Assembly (NCBI RefSeq): GCF_000385925.1
Contig: NC_021175.1
Span: forward strand, 1,123,501 to 1,187,500
Length of the DNA stretch: 64,000 bases
Source: Streptococcus cristatus AS 1.3089
Lineage (GTDB): Bacteria > Bacillota > Bacilli > Lactobacillales > Streptococcaceae
Direction of reading: 5' to 3'
Shown here: in pieces, positions 21,127 to 62,639 of the stretch
How the letters are laid out: each line of letters begins with the position of its first letter
Numbering within the stretch: position 1 is the stretch's first letter
The notes under the pieces: model-generated
What the model saw: only the letters and a program-made list of their open reading frames with translations
Databases searched by the model: none
Told to the model about the DNA's origin: nothing
Translations under genes and position numbers: made by a program

Positions 21127-21302
21127 GAGAGTGGGACAGAAATCAGTAATTCGTTAGAATTCGATTTCATCGTCCCACCTCCGCACAGTTGAGTAGGGCT
21201 GTAAAAGCTGATGAAATCAGCGTAGTAGAGCCCACTCAACCACTGCGTCTTGCTCGACAATCCAAAGACAATTGAGAGGCTAGGACTTTTGTCCCAGCCT
21301 CT
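21127..21302 (+). repeat. Intergenic three-hairpin repeat, copy 1 (GAGAGTGGGACA end first)
   Basis: About 176 bp. The ends are imperfect inverted repeats: GAGAGTGGGACAGAA at the left and the complement of GAGGCTGGGACAAAA at the right. Inside are three hairpins: GTGGGAC/GTCCCAC with an inner GAAATC/GATTTC stem, GTTGAGT-GGGCT/AGCCC-ACTCAAC enclosing GCTGA-TTTCA-TCAGC, and the 26-nt GAGGCTGGGAC-AAAA-GTCCTAGCCTC hairpin. It ends 18 bp past the vicX stop and may terminate vicRKX. No gene lies in 21009-21319. Confidence 0.9.
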
Positions 21303-21319
21303 TTCTGAGCGACTGATGA

Positions 21320-22120
21320 TTAGATAGTTACCAAAGGCGTCGCTGTATCAGGAAAAGTATCAAAGACCTGAAAATCATGACCTACTGGCAAGTCAGCTTG
21401 AGCCAGTTGATTGACCATGGTCATATGAGCCAGCTCCTTGATATTATTTTCCTTACTCAAATGCCCCAGATAGATGCGCTTGGTGCGATTGCCAAGGGTG
21501 CGAATCATGGTTTCCGCACCATCTTCATTGGATAAATGTCCCAAGTCAGACAGGATGCGCTGTTTCAGGCTCCACGGGTAGGCACCGCTCCGGAGAATCT
21601 CGATATCATGATTGCTCTCAATCAAATAAGCATCCGCATTCTCAATCACTCCGGCCATGCGGTCACTAACATAACCCGTATCCGTCAGCATGACAAAGCT
21701 CTTGCCATCCTTCATAAAACGATAAAACTGGGGAGCAGCCGCATCGTGGCTAACCCCAAAACTTTCGACATCTAAATCGCCAAAAGTCTTCATTTTACCC
21801 ATTTCAAAGATATGCTTCTGACTGGCATCCAGCTTGCCCAAGTCCTTTTCCATCGCTCGCCAGGTTGCTTCGTTGGCATAAATATCTAGATTGTACTTAC
21901 GCGCCAAGACCCCTACACCATGGATGTGATCCTTGTGCTCATGGGTGACCAAAATAGCATCTAAATCCTCTGGTTTGCGGTCGATTTCGCTTAAAAGGCT
22001 CGTAATCTTTTTCCCTGATAGACCAGCATCGACAAGCAGGCGTTTTTGGTCTGTTTCCAGATAAAAGCAATTGCCGCTCGATCCCGATGCTAGAATACTA
22101 TATTGAAATCCCTTAGTCAT
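21320..22120 (-). CDS. vicX: VicX/WalJ metallo-beta-lactamase-fold hydrolase
   Basis: 266 aa from the ATG at 22120; a GTG two codons earlier is also possible. N-terminal FQYSILASGSSGNCFYLET, then the metal site THEHKDHIHG (HxHxDH) and later DTGYVSD and SNHDIEILRSGAYP mark the YycJ/WalJ group. The likely role is a nuclease or hydrolase linked to cell-wall and replication coordination. It overlaps vicK by 8 bp as the last gene of vicRKX and is followed by repeat copy 1. Confidence 0.95.
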   Translation of the reverse strand: MTKGFQYSILASGSSGNCFYLETDQKRLLVDAGLSGKKITSLLSEIDRKPEDLDAILVTHEHKDHIHGVGVLARKYNLDIYANEATWRAMEKDLGKLDASQKHIFEMGKMKTFGDLDVESFGVSHDAAAPQFYRFMKDGKSFVMLTDTGYVSDRMAGVIENADAYLIESNHDIEILRSGAYPWSLKQRILSDLGHLSNEDGAETMIRTLGNRTKRIYLGHLSKENNIKELAHMTMVNQLAQADLPVGHDFQVFDTFPDTATPLVTI

Positions 22121-23477
22121 GTTCACTTTCTACATTCTCTTCATTTTCCCAGTCATCTACACGGACAGCATCATTATCATAAGGAAGGACGATGGTAAAG
22201 GTAGAACCCTTACCGTACTCGCTCTTAGCCCAGATAAAGCCATGATGCTGCTTGATAATTTCTTTAGCAATAGCCAGACCCAAGCCCGTTCCTCCCTGGG
22301 CTCGACTGCGGGCCTTATCCACCCGATAGAAACGATCAAAAATCTTTGGCAGATCCTGCTTGGGAATGCCCAAACCTTCATCCGAAATCGAAAGAATCAA
22401 CTGAACATCTGTTGTCCTCACAGAAACCGTAATCGTCCCACCATCAGGTGAATACTTGATGGCATTGTTCATGATATTATCAATAACCTGAGTCATCTTA
22501 TCCGTATCAATCTCTACCCAAATCGGCGTAATTGAATAATCCCTGATAATCTCATATTTTTTGGTCTCATCCTGATTTTTAATCTTATCAAAACGGTTAA
22601 GGATATAGGTGATAAAGGCCGTAAAATTAGTCAGCTCAACGTCCAGATGGCTGGTATTATTATCAATCCGCGATAAGCTAAGTAAGTCCGTCACCATCCG
22701 CATCATCCGGTTTGTCTCAGTTAGTGAAACTTTGACAAATTCCGGTGCAACAGGCTCTGACAGAGCACCATCATCCAAGGCTTCCAGATAGGATTTTACA
22801 CTGGTTAGAGGCGTCCGCAATTCATGGCTAACATTGGAAACGAAAAGCCGACGCTCCCGTTCTTCCTTGTCTTGCTCCGTTGTATCGTGCAGCACTGCTA
22901 CCAACCCTGATATAAAACCTGACTCCCGTCTAATCAAGGCAAACCGAACCCGCAGGCTTACGTATTCGCCATTTTCATCTTGAGAATCAATGGTCAATTC
23001 TGGAACATTGGTAATCAATTCGCGCAAATCGTACTCATCAGCAATATCCAGCAAATCTAAAATACTAGTATTAAGCACATCATCACGTTTGACCCCCAGC
23101 TGCTTGGTCGCCATGTCATTGATAGTGATAATCTGTCCTCGACGGTTGGTCGCAAGTACGCCATCCGTCATGTAAGACAGGATGCTGGATAGACGCTTGG
23201 TCTCTTGCTCCAAATTTTCATGCGTCAGGCGAATGACTTCAGAAAGATCATTGATAGAATTGGTCATATCCGTGATTTCAGGACTTCCCTGCATATCTAA
23301 AACTTCTGAATAATCTCCTGCAATCAAGCCTTTAATCTTTTGATTTAATTGGACCAGTTTTCGAGTATCCCGTCGATTTTCCAGCAGCAAGAGGGCTACA
23401 ACGATGATAAAGCCGACAACGATCAGTGAAAAGACAAAGTCAGGAGACAGAACAAACTCTTTTATTTTTTCAATCAT
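22113..23477 (-). CDS. vicK: Sensor histidine kinase VicK (WalK)
   Basis: 454 aa. One membrane span (about 14-32) with almost no external loop, as in streptococci. A HAMP region (about 33-88) and a PAS domain (about 95-205, [16 protein letters not shown]) follow. His218 in [16 protein letters not shown] is the phosphoacceptor. The ATPase domain has [18 protein letters not shown] and [12 protein letters not shown]. It phosphorylates VicR in the essential wall-homeostasis system. It overlaps vicR by 8 bp and vicX by 8 bp. Confidence 0.97.
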
Positions 23478-24171
23478 TATTTCTTATGTAATAACCGACA
23501 CCGCGGCGAGTCAAGATGTACTCTGGACGGCTTGGAGTATCTTCGATTTTTTCGCGCAGACGACGAATGGTCACATCAACAGTCCGCACATCACCGAAGT
23601 AATCATAACCCCAGACCGTTTCTAGTAAGTGTTCACGTGTCATGACTTGACCGACATGGGTCGCCAAATGGTGCAAGAGTTCAAATTCACGATGGGTTAA
23701 TTCCAATTCTTTCCCGTGTTTTTTCACCACAAAAGCATCTGGAAGAATCTGCAAATCTCCAATAAACAATTCCTTTGGACTACTCTCATCCACATGACTA
23801 TCTGGGATGAGTTCAGAACGGCGCAGCAAGGCCTTGACCCGAGCCAGCAATTCACGATTTGAAAAGGGCTTGGTCACATAGTCATCAGCACCGATTTCCA
23901 GACCGATTACCTTATCGAACTCGCTATCTTTGGCCGAAAGCACAATGATTGGAACATTGCTGGTCTTACGAATGGTCCGAGCAACATCAAGTCCATCCAC
24001 TTCTGGCAACATCAAGTCCAGAATCAAGATGTCTGGTTGCTCCACTTCAAACATTTCCAAGGCTTCCTTACCATCAAAGGCAGTCAGCACTTCATAACCT
24101 TCCTTGGTCATATTAAACTTTATAATGTCCGAGATTGGCTTCTCGTCATCTACAACTAATATTTTTTTCAT
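23470..24171 (-). CDS. vicR: Response regulator VicR (WalR)
   Basis: 233 aa, OmpR/PhoB type. The receiver domain has the acidic pair DDE at residues 8-10, phosphoacceptor Asp52 in [12 protein letters not shown] and Lys in [13 protein letters not shown]. The winged-helix DNA-binding domain is about 133-231 ([45 protein letters not shown]). It controls wall hydrolase genes such as pcsB in streptococci. It is first in vicRKX and transcribed divergently from pepQ. Confidence 0.98.
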
Positions 24172-24250
24172 TTTTTACCTTCATATCTATACAATTTTTA
24201 AGCTTAGACATCTATTATTTTTTTATTTGTCCTACTGCTCCATAAGCACT

Positions 24251-24259
24251 ATTATATCA
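24251..24259 (-). promoter_or_regulatory. Extended -10 promoter for vicRKX
   Basis: TGATATAAT on the minus strand with TATAAT at 24256-24251, about 80 bp before the vicR start. The vicR ribosome-binding site is AAGGT, 6 nt from the ATG. The divergent pepQ start is at 24434; no clear pepQ -10 could be assigned. Confidence 0.6.
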
Positions 24260-24433
24260 AATTTTCCTTAAAAAATACTATTTTCGCACACTATATTCTA
24301 ACATTCTTGTAAAAATTTCACCTCAACTTTCTTTCTCTCAAAAATTTCAGCCAAGGATGAGGAATCCTCGCTAAAATCCTTGATTTTTTTCACTTTTTCT
24401 GCAAAAATAGAGGCATAGAAAGAAGGTTGAACT

Positions 24434-25516
24434 ATGACAAAAATCAATCAAATCATCACTTATCTTGAAAATGAAAAGCAGGATGTCACTGTTATCTCCG
24501 ATCCTGTAACCATTCATTACCTAACAGGCTTTTACAGCGATCCACATGAACGTCAGATGTTCCTATTCGTCTACACTGACCATGAGCCACTTCTTTTCGT
24601 ACCAGCACTGGAAGTTGAGCGTGCTTCCTCTACCGTAGATTTTCAGGTTGTGGGCTATGTCGATTCTGAAAATCCTTGGGAAAAGATCAAAACTTCCCTA
24701 CCATCTCAGACCTTCAAACAAGTGGCAGTCGAGTTTGACAATCTGATTTTAACCAAGTACCACGGCCTGCGTACTGTTTTTGATGGGGCTGAATTTGTCA
24801 ATCTGACTCCTTACATCAACCGCTTGCGCCTGATCAAATCAGCCGACGAAATCCAGAAAATGCTGGTAGCTGGCAAGTATGCTGACAAGGCTGTCAATAT
24901 TGGTTTTGACAATATTTCACTGGACAATACTGAAACGGACATCATCGCTCAAATCGACTTTGCTATTAAGCGAGAAGGCTATGAGATGAGCTTTGAAACC
25001 ATGGTTCTGACAGGCAATAACGCAGCCAATCCGCACGGCATTCCCGGAGCCAATAAAGTCGAAAATAACGCCCTCCTGCTCTTTGACTTGGGCTGCATGG
25101 TCAATGGCTATGCCAGCGATATGACACGGACCGTCGCTGTCGGCCAGCCAGACCAGTTCAAAAAAGATATCTATTATCTGACATTGGAAGCTCAGCAAGC
25201 AGCGCTTGACTTTATCAAACCAGGCGTCACAGCTCATGAAGTAGACCGAGCTGCCCGTGAGGTCATCGAAAAAGCTGGCTATGGTGAATATTTCAACCAC
25301 CGACTTGGCCACGGTATCGGTATGGATGTTCACGAATTCCCATCCATTATGGAAGGCAACGAAATGGTCATCGAAGAAGGCATGTGCTTCTCTGTTGAGC
25401 CTGGTATCTACATCCCTGGCAAGGTCGGCGTTCGTATCGAAGACTGCGGTTATGTTACTAAGAATGGTTTTGAACTCTTCACCGAAACTAGCAAAGACTT
25501 GCTGTATTTTGAATAG
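24434..25516 (+). CDS. pepQ: Xaa-Pro dipeptidase / M24B metallopeptidase
   Basis: 360 aa. The N-terminal creatinase-like domain (1-125) precedes the pita-bread metallopeptidase. The five dinuclear metal ligands are visible: Asp in LLFDLGCMVNGY, Asp in SDMTRTVAVG, His in LGHGIGMDVHE, Glu in SVEPGIYIPG and Glu in VRIEDCG. It releases proline-containing dipeptides in the cytoplasm. Start preceded by GAAGG. It is monocistronic and ends at a clear terminator. Confidence 0.95.
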   Translation: MTKINQIITYLENEKQDVTVISDPVTIHYLTGFYSDPHERQMFLFVYTDHEPLLFVPALEVERASSTVDFQVVGYVDSENPWEKIKTSLPSQTFKQVAVEFDNLILTKYHGLRTVFDGAEFVNLTPYINRLRLIKSADEIQKMLVAGKYADKAVNIGFDNISLDNTETDIIAQIDFAIKREGYEMSFETMVLTGNNAANPHGIPGANKVENNALLLFDLGCMVNGYASDMTRTVAVGQPDQFKKDIYYLTLEAQQAALDFIKPGVTAHEVDRAAREVIEKAGYGEYFNHRLGHGIGMDVHEFPSIMEGNEMVIEEGMCFSVEPGIYIPGKVGVRIEDCGYVTKNGFELFTETSKDLLYFE

Positions 25517-25524
25517 AATAGCAG

Positions 25525-25548
25525 AAAAGCACCGAATGGTGCTTTTTT
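25525..25548 (+). terminator. pepQ terminator
   Basis: AAAAGCACC-GAAT-GGTGCTTTT followed by further Ts, 8 bp after the pepQ stop. Confidence 0.93.
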
Positions 25549-25591
25549 GCTGCTCTTTTCAGGCTCTAAAACGGTGAAAAGGTTTCCCTTT

Positions 25592-26110
25592 TTATAGAGC
25601 TTTCTCAATTTCTTTTGCGATTTTGCTCTTTCTTAACTTCCTCTTTAGGAGGTATGTCAACAAAAGAGTAGGATTTAGACTGTAGGATAATTGCCATTTA
25701 TAATAATTGATCCACTCGATTACGGTGAATAGCCAAATAGCCATAGAGATGGCAAAAGCTGCAAAATTACTGTAGTTCCAGAATATTAACAGCACTCCCA
25801 CAGCTAGTAAGCAAGCATCTACTTTCTTCAATATTTTATAGATTTTCCCTGTATATTTTTCAGCAAATCTTGGCTTGGCAAGCCTTTTTATCAAAATCCA
25901 CCAGAAAACAGAGCCCTGTATTAGAATAAAACTCAGTACAAACAAGGAGAAGGAAATAGAAATTAGGGCTTGTGTGGTTACAAGCCACTTTTTGAGTAGG
26001 CAAAAATTGAACCAGAATACTAGAACAGCGACTAACTCGCCACTCGCTAGGCTAGTCAATTTTTGTTTCATCGACTTTTTCAAACGAAGCGCACACCTCC
26101 TCCACCCCAC
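25592..26110 (-). CDS. Uncharacterised membrane protein, four spans
   Basis: Up to 172 aa. Four hydrophobic segments are visible near residues 25-42, 48-70, 98-113 and 115-130, and the C-terminus is basic (LLKRKLRKSKIAKEIEKAL). I do not recognise the family. The GTG at 26110 is doubtful because the strong GGAGGAGG sequence lies just inside it; a TTG at 26083 or the ATG at 26071 is a better start, giving about 160 aa. Its 3' end lies 44 bp past the convergent pepQ terminator. The 230 bp upstream hold no gene I can support. Confidence 0.6.
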   Translation of the reverse strand: MGWRRCALRLKKSMKQKLTSLASGELVAVLVFWFNFCLLKKWLVTTQALISISFSLFVLSFILIQGSVFWWILIKRLAKPRFAEKYTGKIYKILKKVDACLLAVGVLLIFWNYSNFAAFAISMAIWLFTVIEWINYYKWQLSYSLNPTLLLTYLLKRKLRKSKIAKEIEKAL

Positions 26111-26340
26111 AGATAAACTTTACTAGACAAGCCTGCCTCTCCTGCATCTGAGCAGCTTCCTCCCCAAGACATTTCCAGCTCAATGATAGCTTTAACTTGA
26201 CATTCCTGTCAAAAGAGAATTTCATGGTTTATCATGCACAGGATTTCGAATTTATGTCCGCCAAATACTTATTTTATGTGCCAGTGATCTTAGGCTCAAC
26301 AAAGAAAGCCCTCGTCTCTAGGCTAAAAAGCCAAGCAGTC

Positions 26341-26790
26341 TTACGAAATGGAGTCTTTCGCCATTTCTTTTTCGGTTGCTGCAACAACCTCGGCCAGACT
26401 AGTTTGTGCCAGTTCAGCTTCCATCGCTTTCTGGATAGCCTCCAAACGATTATCTAAAACATTGTGGATATTTTTTCCGATAGGACATTCTGGATTGGGC
26501 TTGTCATGGAAGCTAAAGAGCTGCCCACTCTTGCCCAAACACTCGACCGCACAATAAATATCAAACAGGCTGATGTCTTCTAAATTCTTGATAATATCTG
26601 CCCCACCTGTCCCACGAGCAACACTAATCAGGCCAGCATTCTTAAGCTGGGACAGAGTCTTGCGGATAATAACAGGATTGACTCCGACACTGCCAGCCAA
26701 AATATCACTGGTCAGTTTTTGTTTTTTTCCTTCCAAAGCTAGGATAATCAGCATATGGGTAGCAATGGTAAAACGGCTAGAAATTTGCAT
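26341..26790 (-). CDS. Rrf2 family transcriptional regulator
   Basis: 149 aa from the ATG at 26790, chosen for the AGAGGAGAAAAAC leader; a 20-codon extension is unlikely. The start MQISSRFTIATHMLIILALE and winged helix (SDILAGSVGVNPVIIRKTLSQL, then GLISVARGTGGADI) are typical of the YwnA branch. Three Cys residues lie in the middle (YCAVECLG and ECPIG), so an Fe-S or thiol-sensing role is possible. No target gene lies beside it; the neighbouring locus upstream is decayed. Confidence 0.88.
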   Translation of the reverse strand: MQISSRFTIATHMLIILALEGKKQKLTSDILAGSVGVNPVIIRKTLSQLKNAGLISVARGTGGADIIKNLEDISLFDIYCAVECLGKSGQLFSFHDKPNPECPIGKNIHNVLDNRLEAIQKAMEAELAQTSLAEVVAATEKEMAKDSIS

Positions 26791-26920
26791 GTTTTTCTCC
26801 TCTCTACTGGTATCTATATTTATTATATAGCAAAAGAGTTGTAACTTCAAGTGTTACTTTTCAAAATCTCCTCTATTAACTCTTTTTTTGTTTGATAAAA
26901 TGTTTTATTTCTGTAAATGA

Positions 26921-26969
26921 TTGTGATTTTAGGACAATCTGCTATAATAGTATTAAGAAAGCGTTTTCA
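26921..26969 (+). promoter_or_regulatory. Plus-strand promoter with a cre site but no intact gene
   Basis: TTGTGA (26921-26926), a 16-bp spacer and TATAAT (26943-26948) preceded by TGC form a strong promoter. AGAAAGCGTTTTCA at 26956-26969 matches the CcpA cre consensus TGWAARCGYTWWCW at 13 of 14 positions, at the start of transcription where repression is expected. The nearest plus-strand coding remnant is the TPM-protein tail at 27041-27190. Confidence 0.65.
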
Positions 26970-27040
26970 ACAAACGCAATTCGAGTGCTTTTTTAGGCCA
27001 AAAGCCCAAGGCATTTGTTCGGCCAACATTCTTATTCTAA

Positions 27041-27190
27041 CAAAAGTTCGCTAGCAAAGAATTCTTCCTCTACTTAAATGTTAGTAAAAGAGCCATCCCC
27101 AAACCTAGCCAGAGCTCGAGCTCAGGTGGCAGTAGCACACATACTTCTTCATCTGGCAGAACGCACGGAGGTCGGGGCGGCGGATTCTAG
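27041..27190 (+). pseudogene. C-terminal remnant of a TPM-domain (YgcG-like) protein
   Basis: After a stop at 27038-27040 a frame runs 49 codons to TAG at 27188-27190. Its end is Ser/Gly rich: PSQSSSSGGSSTHTSSSGRT then HGGRGGGF. This is the kind of tail seen on TPM (DUF477) membrane proteins usually found beside LemA. The domain itself is missing. Repeat copy 2 begins 17 bp later. Assignment rests on a low-complexity tail and is tentative. Confidence 0.45.
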
Positions 27191-27207
27191 GAGCATCTAT
27201 AAACAAA

Positions 27208-27287
27208 GAGGCTGGGACAAAAGTCCTAGCCTCTCAATTGTCTTTGGAGTGTCGAGCAAGACGCAGTGGTTGAGTGGGCTCTATTAC
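27208..27287 (-). repeat. Intergenic three-hairpin repeat, copy 2 (truncated)
   Basis: About 80 bp from GAGGCTGGGACAAAAGTCC to the left arm of the middle hairpin (GTTGAGTGGGCTCTATTA). The rest is missing and the phosphoesterase stop codon follows 3 bp later. Only the GAGGCTGGGAC hairpin is complete; it could end the phosphoesterase transcript. Confidence 0.88.
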
Positions 27288-27289
27288 AA

Positions 27290-28132
27290 TTAATCTAGAT
27301 TGCGAATAAAGTCCTGAACATCCTCAAAATAGCCCTCCCGCTCACTGATTTCTCGCAGTAGGTCATGGTTATGAGTATGGTGGATGCCATTCACGAGGCT
27401 TTCCTCATAAATTTCGTAGTAAGGTAACTGGAGCTCACGCGCCCTAGCCAGCTCATGCTCTACATCATAAGCCACGCGACGCATATCGACATCTTTCAGC
27501 CCTGTCTCATCTATCTCTAAAATGGCATATTGAGCCCTCAAATCTTGGCGCAGAGTCGCATCTAAAAAGAAAGGTTGGCCGATGGAGCCTGGATTGATAA
27601 TCAGCTGACCACCTGTTCCATAGCGGAGAAACTGCTGGTGAATATGACCATAGATAGCAATAACCGCTTCATTGCCTTCAAAAAGTCGGTCAAAATCGCT
27701 CTGATTACCAATATGAATCAGCTCCCGTCCCCAGTTCTTATCTGGCAAGTGATGACTGACCGCAATCTTGAGACCTGCTACTTCTGTCAGGACTTGCAGG
27801 GGAAGCTCGCGCATACGGTCAATTTCTTCTGGAAGGATTTCCTCCAAAACAAAATGGCAGAGCTTGGTTAAATAAAGGTGGCTCGGTCGCGTCAAATCCA
27901 ATTTTTGATGCAGGGCATGCCAGAGGCTATCTTCCCAATTCCCACGTACTTGTAGACTAATCGGTAGCCGCTCCAGTTTATCCAAAATATTTCGCCGACC
28001 CGTTCCCGGCATGAGCAAGTCACCTAAAAACCAATAGTCTGTCACAGCCTGACTTTCTGCATCAGCTAGGACAGCCTCTAGCGCCGTCGCATTCCCATGC
28101 ACATCTGACAATAAAGCAATTCTTCTTTTCAT
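27290..28132 (-). CDS. Calcineurin-like metallophosphoesterase
   Basis: 280 aa from the ATG at 28132 (a GTG four codons upstream is the alternative). Metal-binding motifs occur in order: LLSDVHGNATALEAV, FLGDLLMPG, RGNWED, VSHHLP and YGHIHQQF, ending NPGSIGQPF. The fold is that of YfcE/DR1281-type phosphodiesterases. Substrate unknown. Repeat copy 2 abuts its 3' end. Confidence 0.9.
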   Translation of the reverse strand: MKRRIALLSDVHGNATALEAVLADAESQAVTDYWFLGDLLMPGTGRRNILDKLERLPISLQVRGNWEDSLWHALHQKLDLTRPSHLYLTKLCHFVLEEILPEEIDRMRELPLQVLTEVAGLKIAVSHHLPDKNWGRELIHIGNQSDFDRLFEGNEAVIAIYGHIHQQFLRYGTGGQLIINPGSIGQPFFLDATLRQDLRAQYAILEIDETGLKDVDMRRVAYDVEHELARARELQLPYYEIYEESLVNGIHHTHNHDLLREISEREGYFEDVQDFIRNLD

Positions 28133-28228
28133 TTTATCTTTCACTTTCTATCCAAGAAATATTATAACAAAGATCAAAAAAACTTCCACTCAAACACATT
28201 TAGGGAAGTTACAATATAAAATCTAGTC

Positions 28229-30952: not shown

Positions 30953-30953
30953 A

Positions 30954-34869: not shown

Positions 34870-34906
34870 AATAAAAACGAGGCTAGGACTCTTTTGTCCC
34901 AGCCTC
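34870..34906 (-). terminator. Terminator built from a repeat-family hairpin
   Basis: On the minus strand GAGGCTGGGAC and GTCCTAGCCTC (34906-34879) pair around AAAAGA and are followed by GTTTTTATT. The hairpin is nearly identical to one end of the three-hairpin repeat, but the rest of the element is absent. It lies 24 bp after the YtxH gene and should end the hprK operon. Confidence 0.85.
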
Positions 34907-45531: not shown

Positions 45532-46995
45532 ATGTCTTCAAAAGTTATTATTACAATTTTCGGTGCCAGCGGAGACTTGGCTCAAAGAAAACTTTATCCT
45601 TCTCTCTTTAGACTTTATAAATCTGGCAATCTTTCGCAACATTTTGCCGTAATCGGAACTGCCCGCAGACCTTGGAGCAAGGAATATTTCGAGTCGGTCG
45701 TTGTCGAGTCAATCTCTGACCTAGCCGACAGTGCTGAGCAGGCTCAAGAGTTCGCCAGCCACTTTTACTATCAAAGCCATGACGTACAAGATACTGAGCA
45801 TTATATCGAATTGCGCAAGCTGCAAAACAAGCTCAACGAGCAATACCAGGCAGAAAATAACAAACTCTTCTTCCTTTCTATGGCGCCACAATTTTTCGGA
45901 ACCATTGCTAAGCATCTCAAGTCTGAGCAAATCGTTGATGGAAAAGGATTTGAACGCCTGATTGTCGAAAAACCTTTTGGGACAGATTTGGCAACTGCCA
46001 GCAAGCTCAATGAAGATCTACTGGCTACTTTTGATGAAGAACAGATTTTCCGTATCGACCACTATCTGGGCAAGGAAATGATTCAAAAGATTTTTGCCAT
46101 CCGCTTTGCTAATCTTCTGTTTGAAAATGTCTGGAACCGCCAATACATTGATAATGTGCAGATTACCTTTGCTGAAAAGCTGGGCGTTGAAGAGCGCGGT
46201 GGCTACTATGATGAGTCTGGTGCCCTCCGCGATATGGTACAAAACCACACCCTACAACTCCTTTCACTACTGGCCATGGACAAACCAAAAAGCTTTACCA
46301 AAGATCATATCCGTGCAGAAAAGGTCAAGGTCTTTGAACGCCTTGTTCAGCCGAGCGAAGAAGATTTGAAGCGCTTCTTCATTCGTGGTCAGTACAAGTC
46401 TGGCAATATCAATGGCAAAAAATACATTTCCTACCGTAGTGAGCCCAATGTCAACCCTGAGTCTACGACCGAAACCTTTGCCTCTGGTGCCTTCTTCATT
46501 GATAGCGATCGCTTCCGTGATGTTCCTTTCTTCTTCCGAACAGGGAAACGTCTCACTAAAAAAGGCACCCTCGTCAACATCGTTTTCAAACAGATGGACT
46601 CCATCTTTGGTGAACCTCTCAAACCAAATGTACTAACCATCTATATCCAACCAACTGAAGGCCTTTCACTCAGCCTCAATGGTAAGGAAGTGGGAGAACT
46701 CTTTAACCTAGCTCCTATGTCATTGGATTATCGGACAGACGCTACAGCTTCAGGAGCCTCTCCAGACCCTTATGAAAAACTGATTTTTGATGTCCTCAAT
46801 AACGACTCAACTAATTTCAGCCATTGGGACGAAGTAAAAGCCAGCTGGCAGCTTATCGATCGCATCGAAGAACTCTGGAGTCAAAATCAAGTACCACTCC
46901 ATGAATATCCTGTCGGATCTATGGGACCAGAAGCTTCCTTTGAGCTACTCGCCCAATTTGGAGCAAGCTGGCAATGGCAACCTGATAAAGAATAA
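45532..46995 (+). CDS. zwf: Glucose-6-phosphate 1-dehydrogenase
   Basis: 487 aa. The NADP-binding motif GASGDLAQRKL is at the N-terminus, and the active-site block RIDHYLGKEMIQ (catalytic His in RIDHY) is near residue 178, preceded by EKPFGTDL. It converts glucose-6-phosphate to 6-phosphogluconolactone with NADPH production, the entry to the oxidative pentose phosphate route. An extended -10 (TGATAAAAT) lies about 40 bp upstream. It is monocistronic; repeat copy 3 begins 12 bp past its stop. Confidence 0.98.
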   Translation: MSSKVIITIFGASGDLAQRKLYPSLFRLYKSGNLSQHFAVIGTARRPWSKEYFESVVVESISDLADSAEQAQEFASHFYYQSHDVQDTEHYIELRKLQNKLNEQYQAENNKLFFLSMAPQFFGTIAKHLKSEQIVDGKGFERLIVEKPFGTDLATASKLNEDLLATFDEEQIFRIDHYLGKEMIQKIFAIRFANLLFENVWNRQYIDNVQITFAEKLGVEERGGYYDESGALRDMVQNHTLQLLSLLAMDKPKSFTKDHIRAEKVKVFERLVQPSEEDLKRFFIRGQYKSGNINGKKYISYRSEPNVNPESTTETFASGAFFIDSDRFRDVPFFFRTGKRLTKKGTLVNIVFKQMDSIFGEPLKPNVLTIYIQPTEGLSLSLNGKEVGELFNLAPMSLDYRTDATASGASPDPYEKLIFDVLNNDSTNFSHWDEVKASWQLIDRIEELWSQNQVPLHEYPVGSMGPEASFELLAQFGASWQWQPDKE

Positions 46996-47006: not shown

Positions 47007-47181
47007 GAGGCTGGGACAAAAGTCCTAGCCTCTCAATTGTCTTTGGATTGTCAAGCAAGACGCAGTGGTTGAGTGGGCTCTATTACGCTGATTTCATCAG
47101 CTTTTACAGCCCTACGCAACTGTGCGGAGGTGGGACAACGAAATCGAATTCTAACGAATTACCGATCTCTGTCCCACTCTC
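47007..47181 (-). repeat. Intergenic three-hairpin repeat, copy 3 (full)
   Basis: About 175 bp, inverted relative to copy 1. It starts GAGGCTGGGACAAAAGTCC and ends GTCCCACTCTC. It fills the gap between the converging zwf and P-type ATPase genes, so it can end both transcripts. One stem base of the middle hairpin differs (ACGCAAC for ACTCAAC). Confidence 0.92.
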
Positions 47182-50103: not shown

Positions 50104-50194
50104 TGTTTGCATGTCAGGTTATTCGCTTCACTATTTTAAACACAGATAAAGCAAGTATTGACCGTTCAAGCTTTAACTCCATAAGGCAATGTAA

Positions 50195-50310
50195 TGAACT
50201 TAGTCTTGACCTTGGCGATCAGGACTGTTGACCAACGAGTAGTGTCTCCACTGCTTTGCGGTAGTCATCCGTATCCTTATGGTAGCCTCACCTACCGATT
50301 TACACTCTTA
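50195..50310 (-). ncRNA. yybP-ykoY manganese riboswitch
   Basis: The minus strand has the conserved core GGTAGGTGAGGCTACC (50296-50281), then GGATACGGATGACTACCG, GTGGAGACAC and GTTGGTCAACAGTCC. The GGUGAGGCUACC loop and its tandem-helix partner are hallmarks of yybP-ykoY. Mn2+ binding stabilises the aptamer and should prevent the downstream terminator from forming, turning on mgtA. Confidence 0.88.
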
Positions 50311-52708: not shown

Positions 52709-52727
52709 CTATAGTCTGAAACTATAG
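52709..52727 (-). promoter_or_regulatory. MetR (MtaR)-type box upstream of the metB-patB operon
   Basis: CTATAGTCTGAAACTATAG is a perfect 7-5-7 palindrome and fits the streptococcal methionine regulator motif TATAGTTtnaAACTATA with a single change. It lies about 88 bp before the start codon, upstream of a TGTTACAAT extended -10, where a LysR-type activator would bind. Confidence 0.75.
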
Positions 52728-52772
52728 AGTAACAATTCGCGAAAAAAGAGCCGCTGAACGACTCTTCATTTC

Positions 52773-54401: not shown

Positions 54402-54452
54402 AGAAAACCTCTTCTATTTGTTCTTCTTTTATTATAAACTTTTCCTTGCCTC

Positions 54453-54481
54453 TTGTAAAACATAGCCTTTCGGTTTACAAT
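54453..54481 (+). promoter_or_regulatory. murE promoter giving a probable leaderless mRNA
   Basis: TTGTAA (54453-54458), a 17-bp spacer and TACAAT (54476-54481). The murE ATG starts at 54488, 7 bp after the -10, exactly where transcription is expected to start. No Shine-Dalgarno sequence lies before it. Confidence 0.7.
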
Positions 54482-54487
54482 AGAGAT

Positions 54488-55933: not shown

Positions 55934-55937
55934 GAAT

Positions 55938-56241
55938 CTGGGACAAAAAGATTTCAATTTTTAACAATCTTAATTATTAATCCCTTCAAACCTATAATTA
56001 AATGCAAAAAGCGAACAAAGCAGAATTCTGATTACCAGAAAACTAGTTTTGTTCGCTTTTTATATTTGAGGTTGGACTTTTGTCCCAAACTCCTCAATTG
56101 GCTTTGGATTGTCGATCAAGACGCAGTGGTTGAGTGGGTTCTATTACGCTGATTTCATCAGCTTTTACAACCCTACTCAACTATGCGGAGGTGGGACGAC
56201 GAAATCGAATTCTAACGAATTAGCGATTTCTGTCCCACTCT
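55938..56241. repeat. Composite intergenic repeat, copy 4 (module B then inverted module A)
   Basis: Module B (about 55938-56096) begins TGGGACAAAAAG and ends CTTTTGTCCCA; inside, AAAAGCGAACAAA pairs with TTTTGTTCGCTTTT around a CAGAATTCTG palindrome. Module A follows in the orientation of copy 3. In A's middle hairpin both arms differ from other copies (GGGTT with AACCC instead of GGGCT with AGCCC), keeping the pairing. It fills the convergent gap between murE and the CPBP gene. Confidence 0.9.
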
Positions 56242-56244
56242 ATA

Positions 56245-56994
56245 TTATCCATTCCACATTACTAAGACATAGAGCAAGCTGCTGCCTACCATATCCGCAA
56301 AGGCATGTGCCAAAAAGAAAGGCAGCAAGTTTTTAACCTTGTATTTATAAAAGAAATAATAGAACAGACCGAAGACCACGCCAATCAGAAAAGCAGAGAC
56401 TAGCCCCTGATAGGTATGGACAGAAAAGCGAACCAGCGTTGAAAAGGCTAAAACCCACCATTTGCTCTCTTCTTTTACTGATGTGAGCAATCCCAAGAAA
56501 AAGAATTCCTCATAGACCCCATTGAAGAGAGAATAAAGAATGACGACAGGTCCCAAGGCAGCGAGTTTGCGAAAAACTTCGACAAAGGTCCAGTCGATAT
56601 GCTGCAAGATTTCTAAGTCAAAATAATTATAGGAACCGACTAAGGCCGCTATTACATCAGAAGTCAGACCGACAACTGCAAAAATTAAGGGCGCCCACAG
56701 AATGGACCAAGACAAGCGTAGTTTCAGCTGTTTGAAATCATAATGACGGATACCTAGATAGAGCAGAGCCAGCACCAGCAAGAAAACTTGCAATTTCAAA
56801 TTGCTCAGTAAAGCCAAACTTTCATCTTCAGGTCTAGGTACGATTGCTTGTCCCGCAGAGCTGACCGTGGTGAGCCAATTTACTGTTGAGGAGTAAATAA
56901 ATTGGCCAAACATAATGGCAGCTAAAATCAACATATCAAACCATCTAAGGTTCTCCAGTGGTTGCTCGGGATAGATTTTTTTCAACATTGTCAT
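56245..56994 (-). CDS. CPBP family intramembrane glutamic endopeptidase (CAAX-like)
   Basis: 249 aa with six or seven spans. The Abi/CPBP motifs are FNGVYEEFFFLGLLTSV (motif 1, lacking the usual Arg of EExxxR), FSVHTYQGLVSAFLIG (motif 2 His) and FLAHAFADMVGSS (motif 3 His). Such proteins act in bacteriocin self-immunity or membrane-protein processing; the role here is unknown. Repeat copy 4 ends 3 bp from its stop. Confidence 0.85.
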   Translation of the reverse strand: MTMLKKIYPEQPLENLRWFDMLILAAIMFGQFIYSSTVNWLTTVSSAGQAIVPRPEDESLALLSNLKLQVFLLVLALLYLGIRHYDFKQLKLRLSWSILWAPLIFAVVGLTSDVIAALVGSYNYFDLEILQHIDWTFVEVFRKLAALGPVVILYSLFNGVYEEFFFLGLLTSVKEESKWWVLAFSTLVRFSVHTYQGLVSAFLIGVVFGLFYYFFYKYKVKNLLPFFLAHAFADMVGSSLLYVLVMWNG

Positions 56995-57100
56995 CCATAT
57001 TCCTTTCCCAGATTCTATATATTACTATAGCACAGAATATGGCAAAATGACAGGGGAGTTTATCTAATTTTCCCTCATTCGAAAACAGGGAGGAAAGAAG

Positions 57101-57127
57101 CAAGGCTGAGATACGATTATCCCAGCC
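57101..57127 (-). terminator. CsbD gene terminator, repeat-like hairpin
   Basis: AGGCTGGGATA and TATCTCAGCCT pair around ATCG on the minus strand, just after the csbD stop. The stem resembles a decayed GAGGCTGGGAC hairpin of the repeat family. Confidence 0.7.
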
Positions 57128-57134
57128 TCTGGTT

Positions 57135-57338
57135 TTAGTCTTCTTCTTTCTTGAAGGAGTTTTTCAAACCTTCTACTGCTCCCTCGACAGCTCCTTTTGC
57201 ATCTTCTACAACTTCCTTAGCTTTAGCAACTGTTTTTTCGACCGCACCTTCTGCTTCTGTCTTGCTATCGCCAGTGACTTTGCCAAGGCCTTCTTTAAGA
57301 GCGCCTTTGGCTTGATTGAGTTTATCTTCTAGTGACAT
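57135..57338 (-). CDS. CsbD family stress protein
   Basis: 67 aa, highly charged and helical: [20 protein letters not shown], then [20 protein letters not shown]. This is the CsbD pattern of a small general-stress protein of unknown biochemical role. RBS GGAGGCAG lies upstream of the ATG. Confidence 0.9.
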
Positions 57339-57434
57339 AAATCTGCCTCCATTCTTTTTCGGTATTTGATACCGTTTACATTAGTCTAAGACTTTTCAAG
57401 GCAAAGGTCAATTATTTTGCTCATTGCCAACATA

Positions 57435-58088
57435 TCAGTCCAATTGGAACACTAGACGCTCCTTGTCAAAGCTAGCCTGCAACTCATACTTGCCAGCCTC
57501 ATTCTGACGAATATAGCCTAAAATCACCAGACTATCAACAAAAATATCACGACGCTTCTGCATGAGCTCATCCTTGCGGACATACTTGAGGAGGAAAGTC
57601 GTCATATACTTGAGGGCATACTCTGGATTCACATCTCCCAAGACAGCATAGAGAGGCTTCTGTTCCTCAGACAGCGGATACTGATGCTGCATTTTATAGA
57701 AATAATTGGACAAGGTCAGTTTATCTCTCTGAAAATCGGTCTTTTCCAGTAAAATAGCCGTATTTGTTTGATTGGTAAGCAGGGTTTCAAAGCGCAAATC
57801 CAGAAATTCCTGATAGATCGAACCATCATCTCGAATAAAGATTTCCTGATCCAAAGTTAGATTTTTTAGATTGTCCAAAAGTGGAAGCTGCTGATAATAG
57901 CGCTTATTTTCCCGCCGAATATAGCCCGCCTTGATACATTCCTCTATGAAGCGATCTAGATTGGGAAAGCCCGCAAATTCGCGTTTAATTTCTCTTAAAA
58001 TCACATCATTATGCTGATCCAGATAAGTGATTAGTTTTTCAAATAAGGGCTGTCGCGTCAGCCGAGTCGGATTGATAATTTTAATCAT
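57435..58088 (-). CDS. DUF1803-like protein
   Basis: 217 aa, soluble. The start MIKIINPTRLTRQPLFEKLI then TYLDQHNDVILREIKREFAG, and KAGYIRRENKRYYQQLPLL, suggest a winged-helix-like N-terminal half; this pattern fits DUF1803, a family found in streptococci and lactococci. Function unknown. RBS AAGGAGAGCTCC; its start overlaps the end of the YiiX-like gene by 8 bp, so the pair is coupled. Confidence 0.8.
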   Translation of the reverse strand: MIKIINPTRLTRQPLFEKLITYLDQHNDVILREIKREFAGFPNLDRFIEECIKAGYIRRENKRYYQQLPLLDNLKNLTLDQEIFIRDDGSIYQEFLDLRFETLLTNQTNTAILLEKTDFQRDKLTLSNYFYKMQHQYPLSEEQKPLYAVLGDVNPEYALKYMTTFLLKYVRKDELMQKRRDIFVDSLVILGYIRQNEAGKYELQASFDKERLVFQLD

Positions 58089-58593
58089 GGAGCTCTCCTT
58101 TATAAATGAGCTTGGCTGACTGAGCCAACTGACTGGGATTGGTACCAGGCTGCCCTACGGGTACAGCCACGCCCAAGTCCTCATAATAAGCCTGCCAAAA
58201 TGCAGAAACAGCATTTTCACCATCAGCAAACTGCATGGGAATGGTCTCAAAAATCGGCAAAATCCTAGCGATATATTCCGAGCAGTAAAAGCCCTCGCTC
58301 TCAGGATAGAAACTAGCATTATAAAGCTTGCCCAGATGGGACTTAGCTTATTTAAAGGCGGCAGAGGCATCTATCTCTGGATAAGCAAAGACATGATAGA
58401 TGTCCTCTTCTTCCAAAAACTGGCTCAAGGGCTGATGGCTCACTCCCTTGTCCTGCGTCGCATGGTAAATCTCTCCATCAAAGAAGATGCCCACATGACT
58501 ATAAGAGCCTGTAGCTGTCCGAATTGCTGCTGCCATACCCGATTGCCCGACTGTGAACAGCAGATCACCATTTTGTAAATCTTGAATCTTCAT
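58081..58593 (-). pseudogene. YiiX-like permuted papain-fold hydrolase with an in-frame stop
   Basis: The frame from 58593 gives LQNGDLLFTVGQSGMAAAIR and TGSYSHVGIFFDGEIYHAT (catalytic His), then stops with TAA at 58350-58348 after SAAFK. The same frame continues without further stops for 88 codons with LGKLYNASFYPESEGFYCSE (catalytic Cys) to a stop at 58083-58081 overlapping the next gene. Reading TAA as CAA (Gln) would give a normal 170-aa protein. As given the Cys is lost. The family includes lipid- or peptidoglycan-active amidases. Confidence 0.88.
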
Positions 58594-58679
58594 TTCTATC
58601 GTCTATCAAAAAAGGAGCCGAAACTCCTTTACATGTGCGGAAAACAAGTGTTTCCTATTTTGAGCTGTTACTCAGGAAA

Positions 58680-59612
58680 TTAAGCATTAAAACTTTCTGT
58701 CAACTGAGGAACCACTTGTTTCTTACGTGAAACGGCACCAGCCAAGAAAGCATGATTGTTTTCAAGTTTAAAGTTGAAGGCTGCTTCTACCTTGTCCATA
58801 TTAGCACCGATTGCAAGGATTTCTGAGTTTGAATTCACGATATCTGTAATCATCAAAACAAAGTCAGAATAACCATTTTCCGAAATAGCTGCTTGCATTG
58901 CTGCTTCGATTTCTGCTTGGCGTTCCAAGACTTCAGCAATATCAACAGTGTTGACTTGGGCTACACGGACATTGTTTCCGTTGAGTTCAAAAGTCTTGGC
59001 GTCAATGTCGATCAATTCTTCAGCAGATTTGCTTGCCAAGTTTGTACCAGCCTTAAGCATAGCCAGACCATATTCTTCCAAGTTAACACCCGCCAATTCA
59101 GCCAATTCTGGTGCAATAGCTTTGTCAGATGGATGAGTTGTTGGTGATTTCAAAAGAAGAGTATCAGAAATCAAACCTGACAACATAAGACCTGCGATTT
59201 CTTTTGGAACTGCCACACCGTGCTCCTTGAACATACGGTAAACGATAGAAGAAGCTGATCCAACTGGCTCCAGACGCATGTAAAGCGGGCTCGCAGTCTC
59301 AAAGTTGGCTACACGGTGGTGATCCACAACGCCATAAACTTCCACTTCAGCAATATCTGAAACAGACTGTTGGAATTCGTTGTGGTCAGTCAAGATGACT
59401 TGCTCAGCCCCTTCTGCCTTAGCAGATGTGATCACGCGCGGTGCTTCTACTCCAAAATAATCTAAGACAAAAGCTGTTTCTTCATTTGGCGTTCCAAGTG
59501 CTACTACTTCTGTATCCAAACCGTAAGCTTCACGCGCTAGGTAAGCAAAAGCATAAGAAGACCCGATTGCATCTGAATCAGGATTTTGATGACCGAAAAC
59601 TAAAATTTTAAC
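58680..59612 (-). CDS. ppaC: Manganese-dependent inorganic pyrophosphatase
   Basis: About 310 aa. The DHH family motifs are [15 protein letters not shown] (residues about 5-19), [21 protein letters not shown] and, in the DHHA2 domain, [13 protein letters not shown]. It hydrolyses pyrophosphate with Mn2+ to drive biosynthesis. The expected ATG at 59614-59612 with AAGAGG 6 nt upstream is one base out of frame with KILVFGHQ. No in-frame ATG, GTG or TTG exists between the promoter and the conserved start. A lost base, an error or an unusual start codon must explain this. Confidence 0.93.
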
Positions 59613-59652
59613 ATGATGAACCTCTTCGTTTTTAATAATATTTATTCCACTT

Positions 59653-59681
59653 ATTTTACCACAATTATGGGCATTTCTCAA
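59653..59681 (-). promoter_or_regulatory. ppaC promoter
   Basis: TTGAGA (59681-59676), 17 bp, TAAAAT (59658-59653) preceded by TGG. Transcription would begin about 30 bp before the ppaC start region, which rules out long N-terminal extensions. Confidence 0.7.
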
Positions 59682-59868
59682 AAGCAGAAGGACATTTTCT
59701 TGAGAAAAATTGCAGCTTTGCAATAGAAGTCAAAGCTGAACCTTCAAAATAATCATCCAACCTTAACCTTCTATACAAGGATCATCTCTTATGAAACCTC
59801 TCCAGAAGAAAGGCTTGCCTTATCATTTTTATTTCCTGTAAAAGAACAAGAAATTTTTTATAAAAATC

Positions 59869-60044
59869 GAGGCTGGGACAAAAGTCCTAGCCTCTCAATT
59901 GTCTTTGGGATTGTCGAGCAAGACGCAGTGGTTGAGTGGGCTCTACTACGCTGATTTCATCAGCTTTTACAGCCCTACTCAACTGTGCGGAGGTGGGACG
60001 ACGAAATCTAATTCTAACGAATTACTGATTTCTGTCCCACTCTC
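59869..60044 (-). repeat. Intergenic three-hairpin repeat, copy 5 (full)
   Basis: About 176 bp in the same orientation as copy 3, starting GAGGCTGGGACAAAAGTCC and ending GTCCCACTCTC. It lies between the ppaC promoter and the 3' end of the amino acid permease, 39 bp from the permease stop. The rest of 59682-60082 shows no gene. Confidence 0.92.
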
Positions 60045-60082
60045 TGGAAGATTTATACATTTAAGGATATTGGCGATTGTCA

Positions 60083-61537
60083 CTATTGCTTAAGCGACTG
60101 TCTTTTCTCACGCTTAGCCAAAATAGGCAAGATGACTCCCAAACTAATCAAGACAATCGGCGTCAAGATATTTGTCATCAGAGAAAAGCGCCAACCTGCT
60201 GGATCCGCTGCGTAGTCTACCTTAGGAACCATTCCTAAAATACAAGCAAAGGCTGTAAAGAGGAAGCACCAAGCTCCGATAGCAAAGCCAACTTTTGGAT
60301 TTTTGGTAAACTTGTACTCTGCATCTTTGTACTTCTTCCAAGCTTTATTGAGCAGCATGTAAGCCACAAATACCCAGAGATAACGCATGGGCATAACTAT
60401 CGAATTAAGATTAGTCATCCATTTAACTAGGCCATCAATTTCTTTGATTCCAAAGATAGGCAGGATAATCAAGAAGCTGACCAAAATCCCTGTCAAGATG
60501 TAACCGTTAATCAACACACCTTTTGATGTCCGCTTGCGTAGCCAGCTCGGAACAAATTCTTCATCAGCATTATTGAGCAAGATTTGTAGAGGGGCATCAA
60601 TAGAGAAAGCTAAGGCCGCGATCTGTCCGACCATATTGGTCAGGGCATAGATAACGACTAGCACATTGCCCACACCCCAGTAGTTACCCAGCATTTGGAA
60701 GGCTTGATAGGCACCATTGCGCATCAAGTCTTCAGGAATATTGCTGCCGTCAAAAAGCATACCCATAGCTAGAGAGCCTAGAATAGCAGATGCGCCAACC
60801 ATGATGGCCATGATGATCATTCCTTTTGGAAATTCCTTGGCTGGATTGCGAGTCTGATTAACGTAAGGCGAGATTTTCTCAGCCCCACCGACTGCAAAGA
60901 CCAAGAGCGAAATAGTCGTAAAATATGAAAAATCAAAATTAGGAATATAAGTGCTGAGTTTGTCCATATTAGTCGTCGCAAACTGCATGTCCGGCTTGAT
61001 AAAAGGCGCGCCAACCGCTAAGAGAACAAAGAGGAAGGACATAATCAGCATGGCACTTCCGGCCAAGCCTCCAATCACCTTAAGTGTGGACAGCCCCTTG
61101 GTGGACAAATAGAGGAAGGCTCCGAAAATCAGCAAGCTAAGAATAACAATCCAATGGAAATCCAAGCTGCTCAAAAAATCACCATTGCCTTGGATAGCCC
61201 AACCTAAAGGAATCAAAACCCCTTGCGGCTTTTGAGCCAGATAGGGGATATGTACGACCCAGTAAGTCCAAGCTGCAAAATAAGCCAAGCGCTTAGTAGA
61301 AGTCTTTTCAACCCATGCACTAACACCGCCGCCACTTTCCTTGAAGGTCGATCCCAACTGCCCTACAATCAAAGCATAAGGAATAAAGTAAATGGCTAGG
61401 ATAAGAATCCAAGAAACAACAACTGAAATCCCCTGTTGGGAGTAGTTATTAACTACGTTTCCCAGACCCCAAACCATGTTAAAGGCAATCAAGGATACCA
61501 TCAGCCACGTCAGCTGGTTATGATCTTTTTTCATCAT
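60083..61537 (-). CDS. APC family amino acid permease (YjeM-like)
   Basis: 484 aa, 12 spans. The N-terminal LTWLMVSLIAFNMVWGLGNV and ESGGGVSAWVEKTSTKRLAY match the APC superfamily glutamate/GABA-antiporter-like group; NQTRNPAKEFPKGMI and FSIDAPLQILLNNADEEFVP fit YjeM-type members. The substrate is unknown. The start may be the ATG at 61537 or the next codon; AAAGGAG lies 5-8 nt upstream. Flanked by repeat copies 5 and 6. Confidence 0.88.
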   Translation of the reverse strand: MMKKDHNQLTWLMVSLIAFNMVWGLGNVVNNYSQQGISVVVSWILILAIYFIPYALIVGQLGSTFKESGGGVSAWVEKTSTKRLAYFAAWTYWVVHIPYLAQKPQGVLIPLGWAIQGNGDFLSSLDFHWIVILSLLIFGAFLYLSTKGLSTLKVIGGLAGSAMLIMSFLFVLLAVGAPFIKPDMQFATTNMDKLSTYIPNFDFSYFTTISLLVFAVGGAEKISPYVNQTRNPAKEFPKGMIIMAIMVGASAILGSLAMGMLFDGSNIPEDLMRNGAYQAFQMLGNYWGVGNVLVVIYALTNMVGQIAALAFSIDAPLQILLNNADEEFVPSWLRKRTSKGVLINGYILTGILVSFLIILPIFGIKEIDGLVKWMTNLNSIVMPMRYLWVFVAYMLLNKAWKKYKDAEYKFTKNPKVGFAIGAWCFLFTAFACILGMVPKVDYAADPAGWRFSLMTNILTPIVLISLGVILPILAKREKRQSLKQ

Positions 61538-61634
61538 ATCATCTCCTTTGAATATAAAATAAATAGATCCGTAATATTATAACATGTTTTAAAGATTTTG
61601 TAACCGTCTTCACCACATTTTGCCCCAAAAATAA

Positions 61635-61938
61635 TGGGACAGAAATCGGTAATTCGTTAGAATTCGATTTCGTCGTCCCACCTCCGCACAGTTGAGTAGG
61701 GCTGTAAAAGCTGATGAAATCAGCCTAGTAGAGTCCACTCAACTACTGCGTCTTGCTCGACAATCCAAAGACAATTGAGGAGTTTGGGACAAAAATATTT
61801 CAATTTTTAAAAATCTCAATTATTAAGCCCTTCAAATCTATAATTAAATGCGAAAAGCGAACAAAGCAGAATTCTGTTTACCAGAAAACTAGTTTTGTTC
61901 GCTTTTTATATTTGAGGTCGGACTTTTGTCCCACTCTC
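61635..61938 (+). repeat. Composite intergenic repeat, copy 6 (module A then module B)
   Basis: Module A (about 61635-61780) lies in the copy 1 orientation and leads straight into module B (about 61777-61938), which is in the same orientation as in copy 4. Relative to A, module B is therefore inverted compared with copy 4. B ends GTCCCACTCTC, the usual outer end of A, 11 bp from the rplA stop. It can end the rplK-rplA transcript. Confidence 0.9.
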
Positions 61939-61949
61939 AATTTATATTC

Positions 61950-62639
61950 TTAAAGTGAGTTTACATCAACTTTGATACCAGGACCTTGAGTTGTTGTAAT
62001 AGACAAGTTTGTTACGTAAGTTCCTTTTGCTGTAGCTGGTTTTGCTTTTTGGATTGTATCGTTGAAAGCTTTGAAGTTTTCAACCAATTTTTCAGCATCA
62101 AATGAAACTTTACCAATGACAGCTTGTACGTTACCTGCACGGTCTGCACGGTAAGTAATCTTACCACCTTTAGACTCTTCAACTGCTTTTGCAACGTCCA
62201 TTGTTACAGTACCAGTTTTAGGGTTTGGCATCAAGTTACGAGGTCCAAGGACACGTCCAAGGCGACCTACAAGAGCCATCATGTCAGGTGTAGCGATAAC
62301 TACGTCGAAGTCCAACCAACCATCGTTGATTTTAGCAACAAGGTCATCTTCACCAACGAAGTCTGCACCAGCAGCTTTTGCTTCTTCAGCTTTAGCACCA
62401 CGTGCGAAAACAAGAACGCGTGAAGTTTTACCAGTACCGTGTGGCAATACCATTGCGCCACGGATTTGTTGGTCAGCTTTTTTAACGTCGATGTTCAAGT
62501 TGTAAGCAACTTCTACAGTTGCGTCGAATTTTGCAAAGTTAGTTTCTTTTGCAAGTGCTACAGCTTCTTCTACGCTGTACGCTTTTGTGCTGTCGATTTT
62601 CTCAAGAGCAGCACGAAGTTGTTTGCTTTTTTTAGCCAT
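61950..62639 (-). CDS. rplA: 50S ribosomal protein L1
   Basis: 229 aa. L1 signatures are [54 protein letters not shown] and [22 protein letters not shown] repeats. It forms the L1 stalk that moves deacylated tRNA out of the E site and represses its own operon by binding the mRNA leader. It is 100 bp after rplK with an AAGGAGAAAGAT RBS. Confidence 0.98.

Follow-up and report, generated by a model that had tools for sequence, protein, structure and literature searches.

A 175-bp hairpin repeat of Streptococcus cristatus is very probably a miniature IS1182-family element that replaces terminator stem-loops

What is the 175-bp repeat that recurs behind genes of Streptococcus cristatus AS 1.3089, and what stood at those places before it came? 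The window analysed here, 64,000 nucleotides of a single-contig genome of 2,142,100 bases (G000:C1:1123501-1187500), had been described as holding six copies of a three-hairpin, terminator-like element that spread as a mobile repeat. All six are found in the sequence, the 175-bp repeat is real, and copies across the host genome and in related genomes bear out the claim of mobility. Our central point goes beyond that description: the element replaces a pre-existing terminator hairpin, rather than sitting beside it. The repeat is very probably a non-autonomous element of the IS1182 family of insertion sequences (IS), namely a miniature inverted-repeat transposable element (MITE), that replaces terminator stem-loops with itself. 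Stem-loop-replacing transposition is known; a MITE of IS1182-type insertion sequences that uses this mode is new.

A search for empty sites in sister genomes, which the original prediction had proposed, yielded both empty and filled alleles, with the element standing where a native hairpin was. Four window sites were compared in seven loci of the S. cristatus cluster (L031-L036, L066), and at all four the element-free alleles carry a terminator-like hairpin whose stem differs from site to site. At 47007, six of the seven relatives have a short A-hairpin-T terminator and L036 has a 159-bp element; at 55938, six have a terminator hairpin and L033 a composite; all seven have a hairpin at 59869, and all seven a simple hairpin at the composite site 61635. 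Fourteen loci of the S. parasanguinis/S. australis group gave four more sites with this exchange.

In total, 58 pairs of empty and filled alleles were mapped; one was dropped (673 bp of other sequence) and the remaining 57, of up to 160 bp, were read. Junctions are clean in 45 of these, which collapse to 29 unique sites with exchanged native segments of 15-37 bp. Under a fixed rule (a single hairpin with a folding energy, dG, of -5 or lower, covering at least 75% of the segment) the target was an inverted repeat, now removed, at 24 of the 29 clean sites, compared with 69 of 1094 segments of the same length from the neighbourhood (up to ~330 bp to each side) and 184 of 2868 placed at random. 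By eye the count is 27 of 29: H194687, H298560 and H461630 miss the rule yet are hairpins. The 12 rows with unclear junctions comprise 9 hairpins by eye, site H256991, and 2 (G056, 682328) that adjoin an assembly gap. Moreover, no flanking direct repeats longer than 4 bp, and hence no target duplication, were found around 30 copies. As a separate observation, two genomes of the S. parasanguinis group (L050 and L059, around locus position 8150) hold, at one of the element's target sites, another insert instead, which is ~290 bp long and has ends resembling GGCTTGGCATAAATGTCC.

Elements at terminators close to stop codons might also result from ordinary insertion beside or inside the terminator followed by deletion of the redundant native hairpin, and other insertion sequences do insert into hairpin loops. 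We consider this course extremely improbable, however: in the 45 clean pairs no occupied allele keeps the native arms in the 25 bases on each side, and independent, exact loss of whole stems is implausible. Even the host and G043 differ by such exchanges, and G043 is by murE DNA the nearest among 147 Streptococcus genomes (97%, followed by G008, G056, G017 and G162 at 93-94%). The murE protein encoded in the window finds its best matches, at 95-98%, in Streptococcus cristatus and Streptococcus sp. Marseille-P6264. Because no intermediates occur among the pairs, the exchange would be a single step.

The ends of the element point to its mover. Its terminal inverted repeats match at 12 of 15 positions, a value unchanged on recounting, and its first 18 nt are identical to the left end of L255, a transposase-encoding IS1182 member flanked by GAGGCTGGGACAAAA and GAGTCTGGGACAAAA whose transposase reaches 340.5 bits with profile NF033551 (cut-off 270 bits). 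Similar ends occur in L253, L254, L258 and L261, and both ends of L254 have counterparts in the 159-bp element (91% over 23 and 78% over 41). When IS1182 transposases were sought with this profile in 20 genomes, 16 had a match, nine of them over the cut-off. Of 30 IS loci fetched, 27 by our own count carry such an end, allowing 3 mismatches, on one side or both. Most of them fall into two groups, one with ends GAGGCTGGGCAAAAA, and a second, which includes L255, with ends like GAGGCTGGGACAAAA and GAGTCTGGGACAAAA and a transposase frame of ~512 codons. Copy L220 has perfect terminal repeats GAGGCTGGGCAAAAA and a transposase that passes the NF033551 cut-off and, used as a query, matches at 1e-40 in 34 of the 147 Streptococcus genomes. 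A broken IS of the second group, with GAGGCTGAGACAAAA at both ends, is present in S. cristatus DD08 (L267). In none of the 13 IS copies with GGGAC or GGGCA ends that were examined do the two flanks share a word longer than 8 nt.

A sister IS1182 subgroup of streptococci, with ends CAGATTGAAGACAAA, belongs to the same transposase family and also sits at terminator-like stem-loops, but shows the opposite outcome to replacement, namely duplication. Both ends are present in 14 of 15 loci examined, and in 10 of these 14 an exact direct repeat of a complete stem-loop of 18-29 bp stands on both sides (L212-L215, L217, L218, L228, L231, L239 and L240, of which L217 and L218 seem to represent a single site in a pair of genomes). 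L216 has a stem-loop duplication with one mismatch, and in three other loci the flanks have at most a shorter word in common. The ten exact duplicators include the host's intact IS (L215, G000:C1:746640-747932).

Published work offers a frame for both outcomes. According to one report, IS1272 (IS1182 family) and TnSha1 of staphylococci target hairpins and delete the stem-loop sequence with blunt ends, leave no target duplication and can enter one target in both orientations (PMC4923244). A second report names the mode inverted-repeat-replacing or stem-loop-replacing transposition, adds that IS1272 also has targets that are not inverted repeats, and puts forward that the whole stem-loop would be duplicated instead if joining took place at its 5′ feet (PMC5678879). 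The replacement outcome matches the 175-bp element and the duplication outcome matches the CAGATTGAAGACAAA subgroup. The likeness to IS1272 and TnSha1 lies in a stem-loop target, often a terminator, that is lost without duplication and is entered in both orientations (PMC4923244, PMC5678879), and in ends of this kind on streptococcal IS1182 members. The difference is that IS1272 and TnSha1 encode a transposase or a cargo gene, whereas the 175-bp element is too short for that, is built of hairpins, and belongs to a set of 35 elements of all types in 464 kb of host DNA (stretch H, the window plus 400 kb). Both orientations at one target are also found here: among 22 same-site pairs of full copies, 16 share their orientation and 6, at 5 sites, are opposite, and all 6 involve the more distant G056.

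We therefore propose the following course, read from sequence comparison. A DDE transposase of IS1182 type, acting in trans, would recognise ends of the GAGGCTGGGACAAAA type, and the element would be inserted at a DNA stem-loop, usually the hairpin of an intrinsic terminator. The target stem-loop would be lost in the same event without target duplication, by strand chemistry that would make the exchange in one step. Since the element consists of hairpins in a row, and the A- and T-tracts of the native site would usually stay, the product would be terminator-like in both directions; this restored terminator look would let many copies build up at gene ends. In this manner 175 bases of selfish DNA, spread through an oral streptococcus, probably rewire gene ends without breaking genes.

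A transposase might also be dispensable if terminator hairpins were exchanged by template switching or ectopic gene conversion through microhomology in the A- and T-tracts. Such tracts flank most sites, streptococci are naturally transformable, and the host yielded no matching transposase. Nevertheless, the tracts themselves were removed at the 55938 site, the exchange took place at R1 341274 with one tract absent, the ends of the element are constant and equal to IS ends, and PMC5678879 reports the same outcome for IS1272, which together make this explanation very improbable.

Replacement is also visible within the element itself. Of the three hairpins of the 175-bp element, hairpin 1 is terminal and 26 bp long (GAGGCTGGGAC/loop/GTCCTAGCCTC), the second lies in the middle, and hairpin 3 is long and terminates in GTCCCACTCTC; the 159-bp element has its own GGGACAAAA...TTTTGTCCC ends. 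The features of the window are:

21127..21301, minus strand: full 175-bp element (blastn 96% over 175 bp)
27208..27287, plus strand: 3′-truncated element, first 80 bp (97.5% over 80 bp)
34879..34906, minus strand: stand-alone hairpin with the same terminal sequence, a minimal relative and possibly a solo end (92.9% to element positions 1-26)
47007..47181, plus strand: full 175-bp element in place of a terminator hairpin, 3′ of the open reading frame (ORF) ending at 46995
55934..56092, plus strand: 159-bp element replacing hairpin 1 of a 175-bp element, with its own ends GAATCTGGGACAAAA/TTTTGTCCCAAACTC; the sequence then continues at element position 26
56093..56242, plus strand: remainder of that 175-bp element, positions 26-174 (93.3% over 149 bp)
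59869..60044, plus strand: full element in place of a terminator hairpin (95.5%)
61632..61779, minus strand: 175-bp element without hairpin 1 and its outermost bases (94.5% to positions 26-170)
61780..61938, plus strand: 159-bp element in opposite relative orientation, replacing hairpin 1 of its neighbour, with ends GAGTTTGGGAC/GTCCCACTCTC

The six places given earlier hold, except that the first copy ends at 21301 and not at 21302. The two other full copies are 96.0% and 95.5% identical to that at 47007 by blastn (E of 1e-77 or better for both), and no Rfam family reached its gathering score over any window copy. Site 21127 is also occupied in G043, in the same orientation, and in G056, in the opposite one. 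The 304-bp forms near 55938 and 61635 are present as described, although they are nested composites rather than copies with a simple insert. In three composites (two in the window, the third in G043), and in both relative orientations, the 159-bp element occupies the position of hairpin 1 to within one base; thus the element's own hairpin is also a target. Stand-alone terminator-like hairpins at 34879-34906 and 57102-57129 of the window resemble the terminal sequence of the element and may be solo ends or the ancestral target type.

The element had further been said to lie often between converging genes, close to stop codons, with the build of a terminator, and larger counts agree. In three genomes together, 61 full copies could be placed: 45 between tandem, 16 between convergent and 0 between divergent genes. 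The corresponding background, 1076 gaps no shorter than 40 bp, divides into 826, 121 and 129. These are counts that use crude ORF gene calls and include sites common to the three genomes more than once. Convergent sites are enriched (16/61 versus 121/1076, Fisher p 0.0017) and divergent ones depleted (0/61 versus 129/1076, p 0.0012), and for 19 of 34 placed host elements a stop codon is no more than 20 bp away. Genes within 200 bp read into the element in 64 directions, and in 61 of these the next 8 bases contain at least 4 T, compared with 20% of random genomic 8-mers, so that a hairpin is followed by a T-tract as in intrinsic terminators; the last hairpin read is hairpin 1 in 33 directions and hairpin 3 in 31. 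Hairpins with T-tracts after the element thus restore the build of a terminator, and the element would be expected to terminate transcription.

Several points weigh against replacement by an IS1182-type MITE. A transposase of the matching subgroup was not found in the host, and in a search of 20 element-carrying genomes an intact one was present in G079 only, with fragments in 4 others; because the host yielded none, the element may currently be an orphan there. Moreover, the intact IS1182 copy of the host has different ends and duplicates its stem-loop. Two of the 29 clean sites have no convincing hairpin: the segment exchanged at H222837 is A/T-rich without a stable fold, and that at H256991 is 22 bp inside an ORF of 140-169 codons in both sister genomes. 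Six further sites with unclear junctions were judged by eye alone (5 hairpins, 1 adjoining an assembly gap). A laxer first statistic, end pairing at free offset, separated sites from controls less well (28 of 29 against 28-30%, namely 306 of 1096 neighbouring and 1707 of 5688 random segments) and was dropped as too lenient in favour of folding energy. The control for the T-tracts was whole-genome 8-mers, not intergenic ones, and working termination is predicted from the build. Finally, copies at one site mostly resemble each other no more closely than copies drawn at random; hence independent entry, copy-for-copy exchange and in-place inversion all fit alike.

At the position of the copy at H256991 (host ~980491-980666), G043 and G056 both have an open frame, presumably with a Nudix-like motif, so the host gene is probably broken by the element. 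The intergenic placement claimed earlier is true of all window copies and fails for this 1 of the 35 elements in 464 kb.

Other candidate movers were set aside. Y1 (REP-type) transposases have no match in the host and matches in 6 of 12 genomes. The gene between two inverted 159-bp elements (H 3636-4967) was considered as an autonomous unit; its product is not a transposase, and we take it by its look to be a TraX-type membrane protein. Longer elements with the same ends were sought in the H, G043 and G056 stretches, where 8, 9 and 14 extra motif hits gave no transposon; one G056 motif pair outside the known elements is a further copy broken by an assembly gap.

The repeat is short, present in many copies and, at 175 bp, without coding capacity for a transposase, as is usual for a MITE. 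A DNA search of the whole host genome gave 152 first-look candidates, and all 40 that were scored are full length or one base short, at 95-100% identity; the host probably has over 100 copies. The 35 elements of stretch H are 31 of the 175-bp type (one truncated), 2 of the 159-bp type and 2 composites, compared with 29 elements in 685 kb of G043 and 13 in 760 kb of G056. In a covariance-model search, suggested earlier, further copies turned up in many Streptococcus genomes: with the best 18 candidates scored per genome, at least 120 of 147 have a match at 1e-6. A class-wide draw of 299 genomes from 118 genera gave 32 with a match, split evenly between two genera: Streptococcus (16) and the genus of Staphylococcus simiae (16). 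One genome of this second genus has a FabG 100% identical to that of S. simiae, and full-length matches reach 115 bits among the matches listed (13 of 16 genomes). Within the order of Streptococcus, a DNA search of 16 genomes from other genera gave weak matches in 2 (E of 6.9e-4 and 2.9e-5). Two Streptococcus plasmid records carry the element, one as a full copy, and no phage record searched has it.

Aligned between Streptococcus and Staphylococcus, the element has the same three-part plan, and its middle module is more strongly conserved than hairpin 1. One S. simiae copy has as its neighbour the terminal part of an IS1182-type transposase, a partial frame with 269.2 bits against the cut-off of 270. 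The Rfam S35 model gave no gathering-score match on nine Staphylococcus loci. As a side observation, two loci of this genus, L326 (351-1173) and L330 (362-1161), hold relatives of the element in short tandem arrays that recall STAR arrays.

Is the fold itself under selection? A single double change in the 55938 copy (GGGCT/AGCCC to GGGTT/AACCC) had been put forward as evidence; the change is present in the sequence but is weak when taken alone. Covariation over 26 copies (25 distinct) from several species, with the structure derived from the same alignment, is better evidence. In this alignment 97.2% of cells pair and 9 pairs changed on both sides, whereas shuffled alignments average 3.5, none of 500 reaches 9, and slid partners give 0-3. 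The three hairpins in series and their conserved fold are thus supported by covariation.

The covariation, the middle module conserved in both Streptococcus and Staphylococcus, and a weak local match of hairpin 3 to the S. aureus small RNA S35 (31 bits against a gathering score of 69) speak for a host-selected RNA element (terminator, 3′ stabiliser or small RNA), with copies placed by selection and mobility secondary. We nonetheless think this unlikely. A structure required for transposition would covary too, copy number is uneven between sisters (35, 29 and 13 in the stretches above), 27 of the 147 Streptococcus genomes have no match at 1e-6 among their best 18 candidates, and orientation relative to genes is even (33 versus 31). 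As a tentative synthesis with the replacing MITE, a nearly neutral parasite made only of hairpins might swap terminators, while its compensatorily kept internal hairpins, common to two orders, could be functional, either as a DNA structure read by the transposase or as an RNA module through which many genes share an exchangeable 3′ end.

Stem-loop-replacing transposition is seen here at dozens of sites with empty and filled alleles, compared with few IS copies before, and the sites constitute a natural experiment in terminator replacement. With a duplicating IS1182 sister subgroup at hand, what decides between replacement and duplication becomes directly testable. The replacing MITE is also a plausible source of scattered 3′ repeats in streptococci and staphylococci.

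Among known repeats, the EFAR repeats of Enterococcus faecalis, intergenic palindromes of ~170 bp near gene ends, are similar by description only. BOX, RUP and SPRITE of pneumococcus are likewise small interspersed repeats, and SPRITE is terminator-like and enriched at 3′ ends (PMC3049150); the 175-bp element, for which a partner IS family and the replacement mode are identified, may be distinct from them. The 'start signature' GTGGGACAGAAATGAT of STAR repeats in S. aureus (PMC3532100) resembles the end of hairpin 3, but STAR consists of direct repeats with spacers. Hairpin 3 is also a weak match to the S35 model, and srn_0335 is listed as a repeated region (PMC5826253). The relation to STAR and S35 is limited to about 13-16 and 67 positions, respectively. 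In the open-licence literature, represented mostly by titles and abstracts, we found no description of a streptococcal 175-bp element or of a stem-loop-replacing MITE.

Two further observations concern the surroundings of the element. Host positions ~727300-791300 are in inverted order relative to G043:C1:~291400-352300, and the first 28 kb are inverted relative to G056 as well. An M-box (magnesium) riboswitch lies on the minus strand of the window at 50154-50306 (88 bits).

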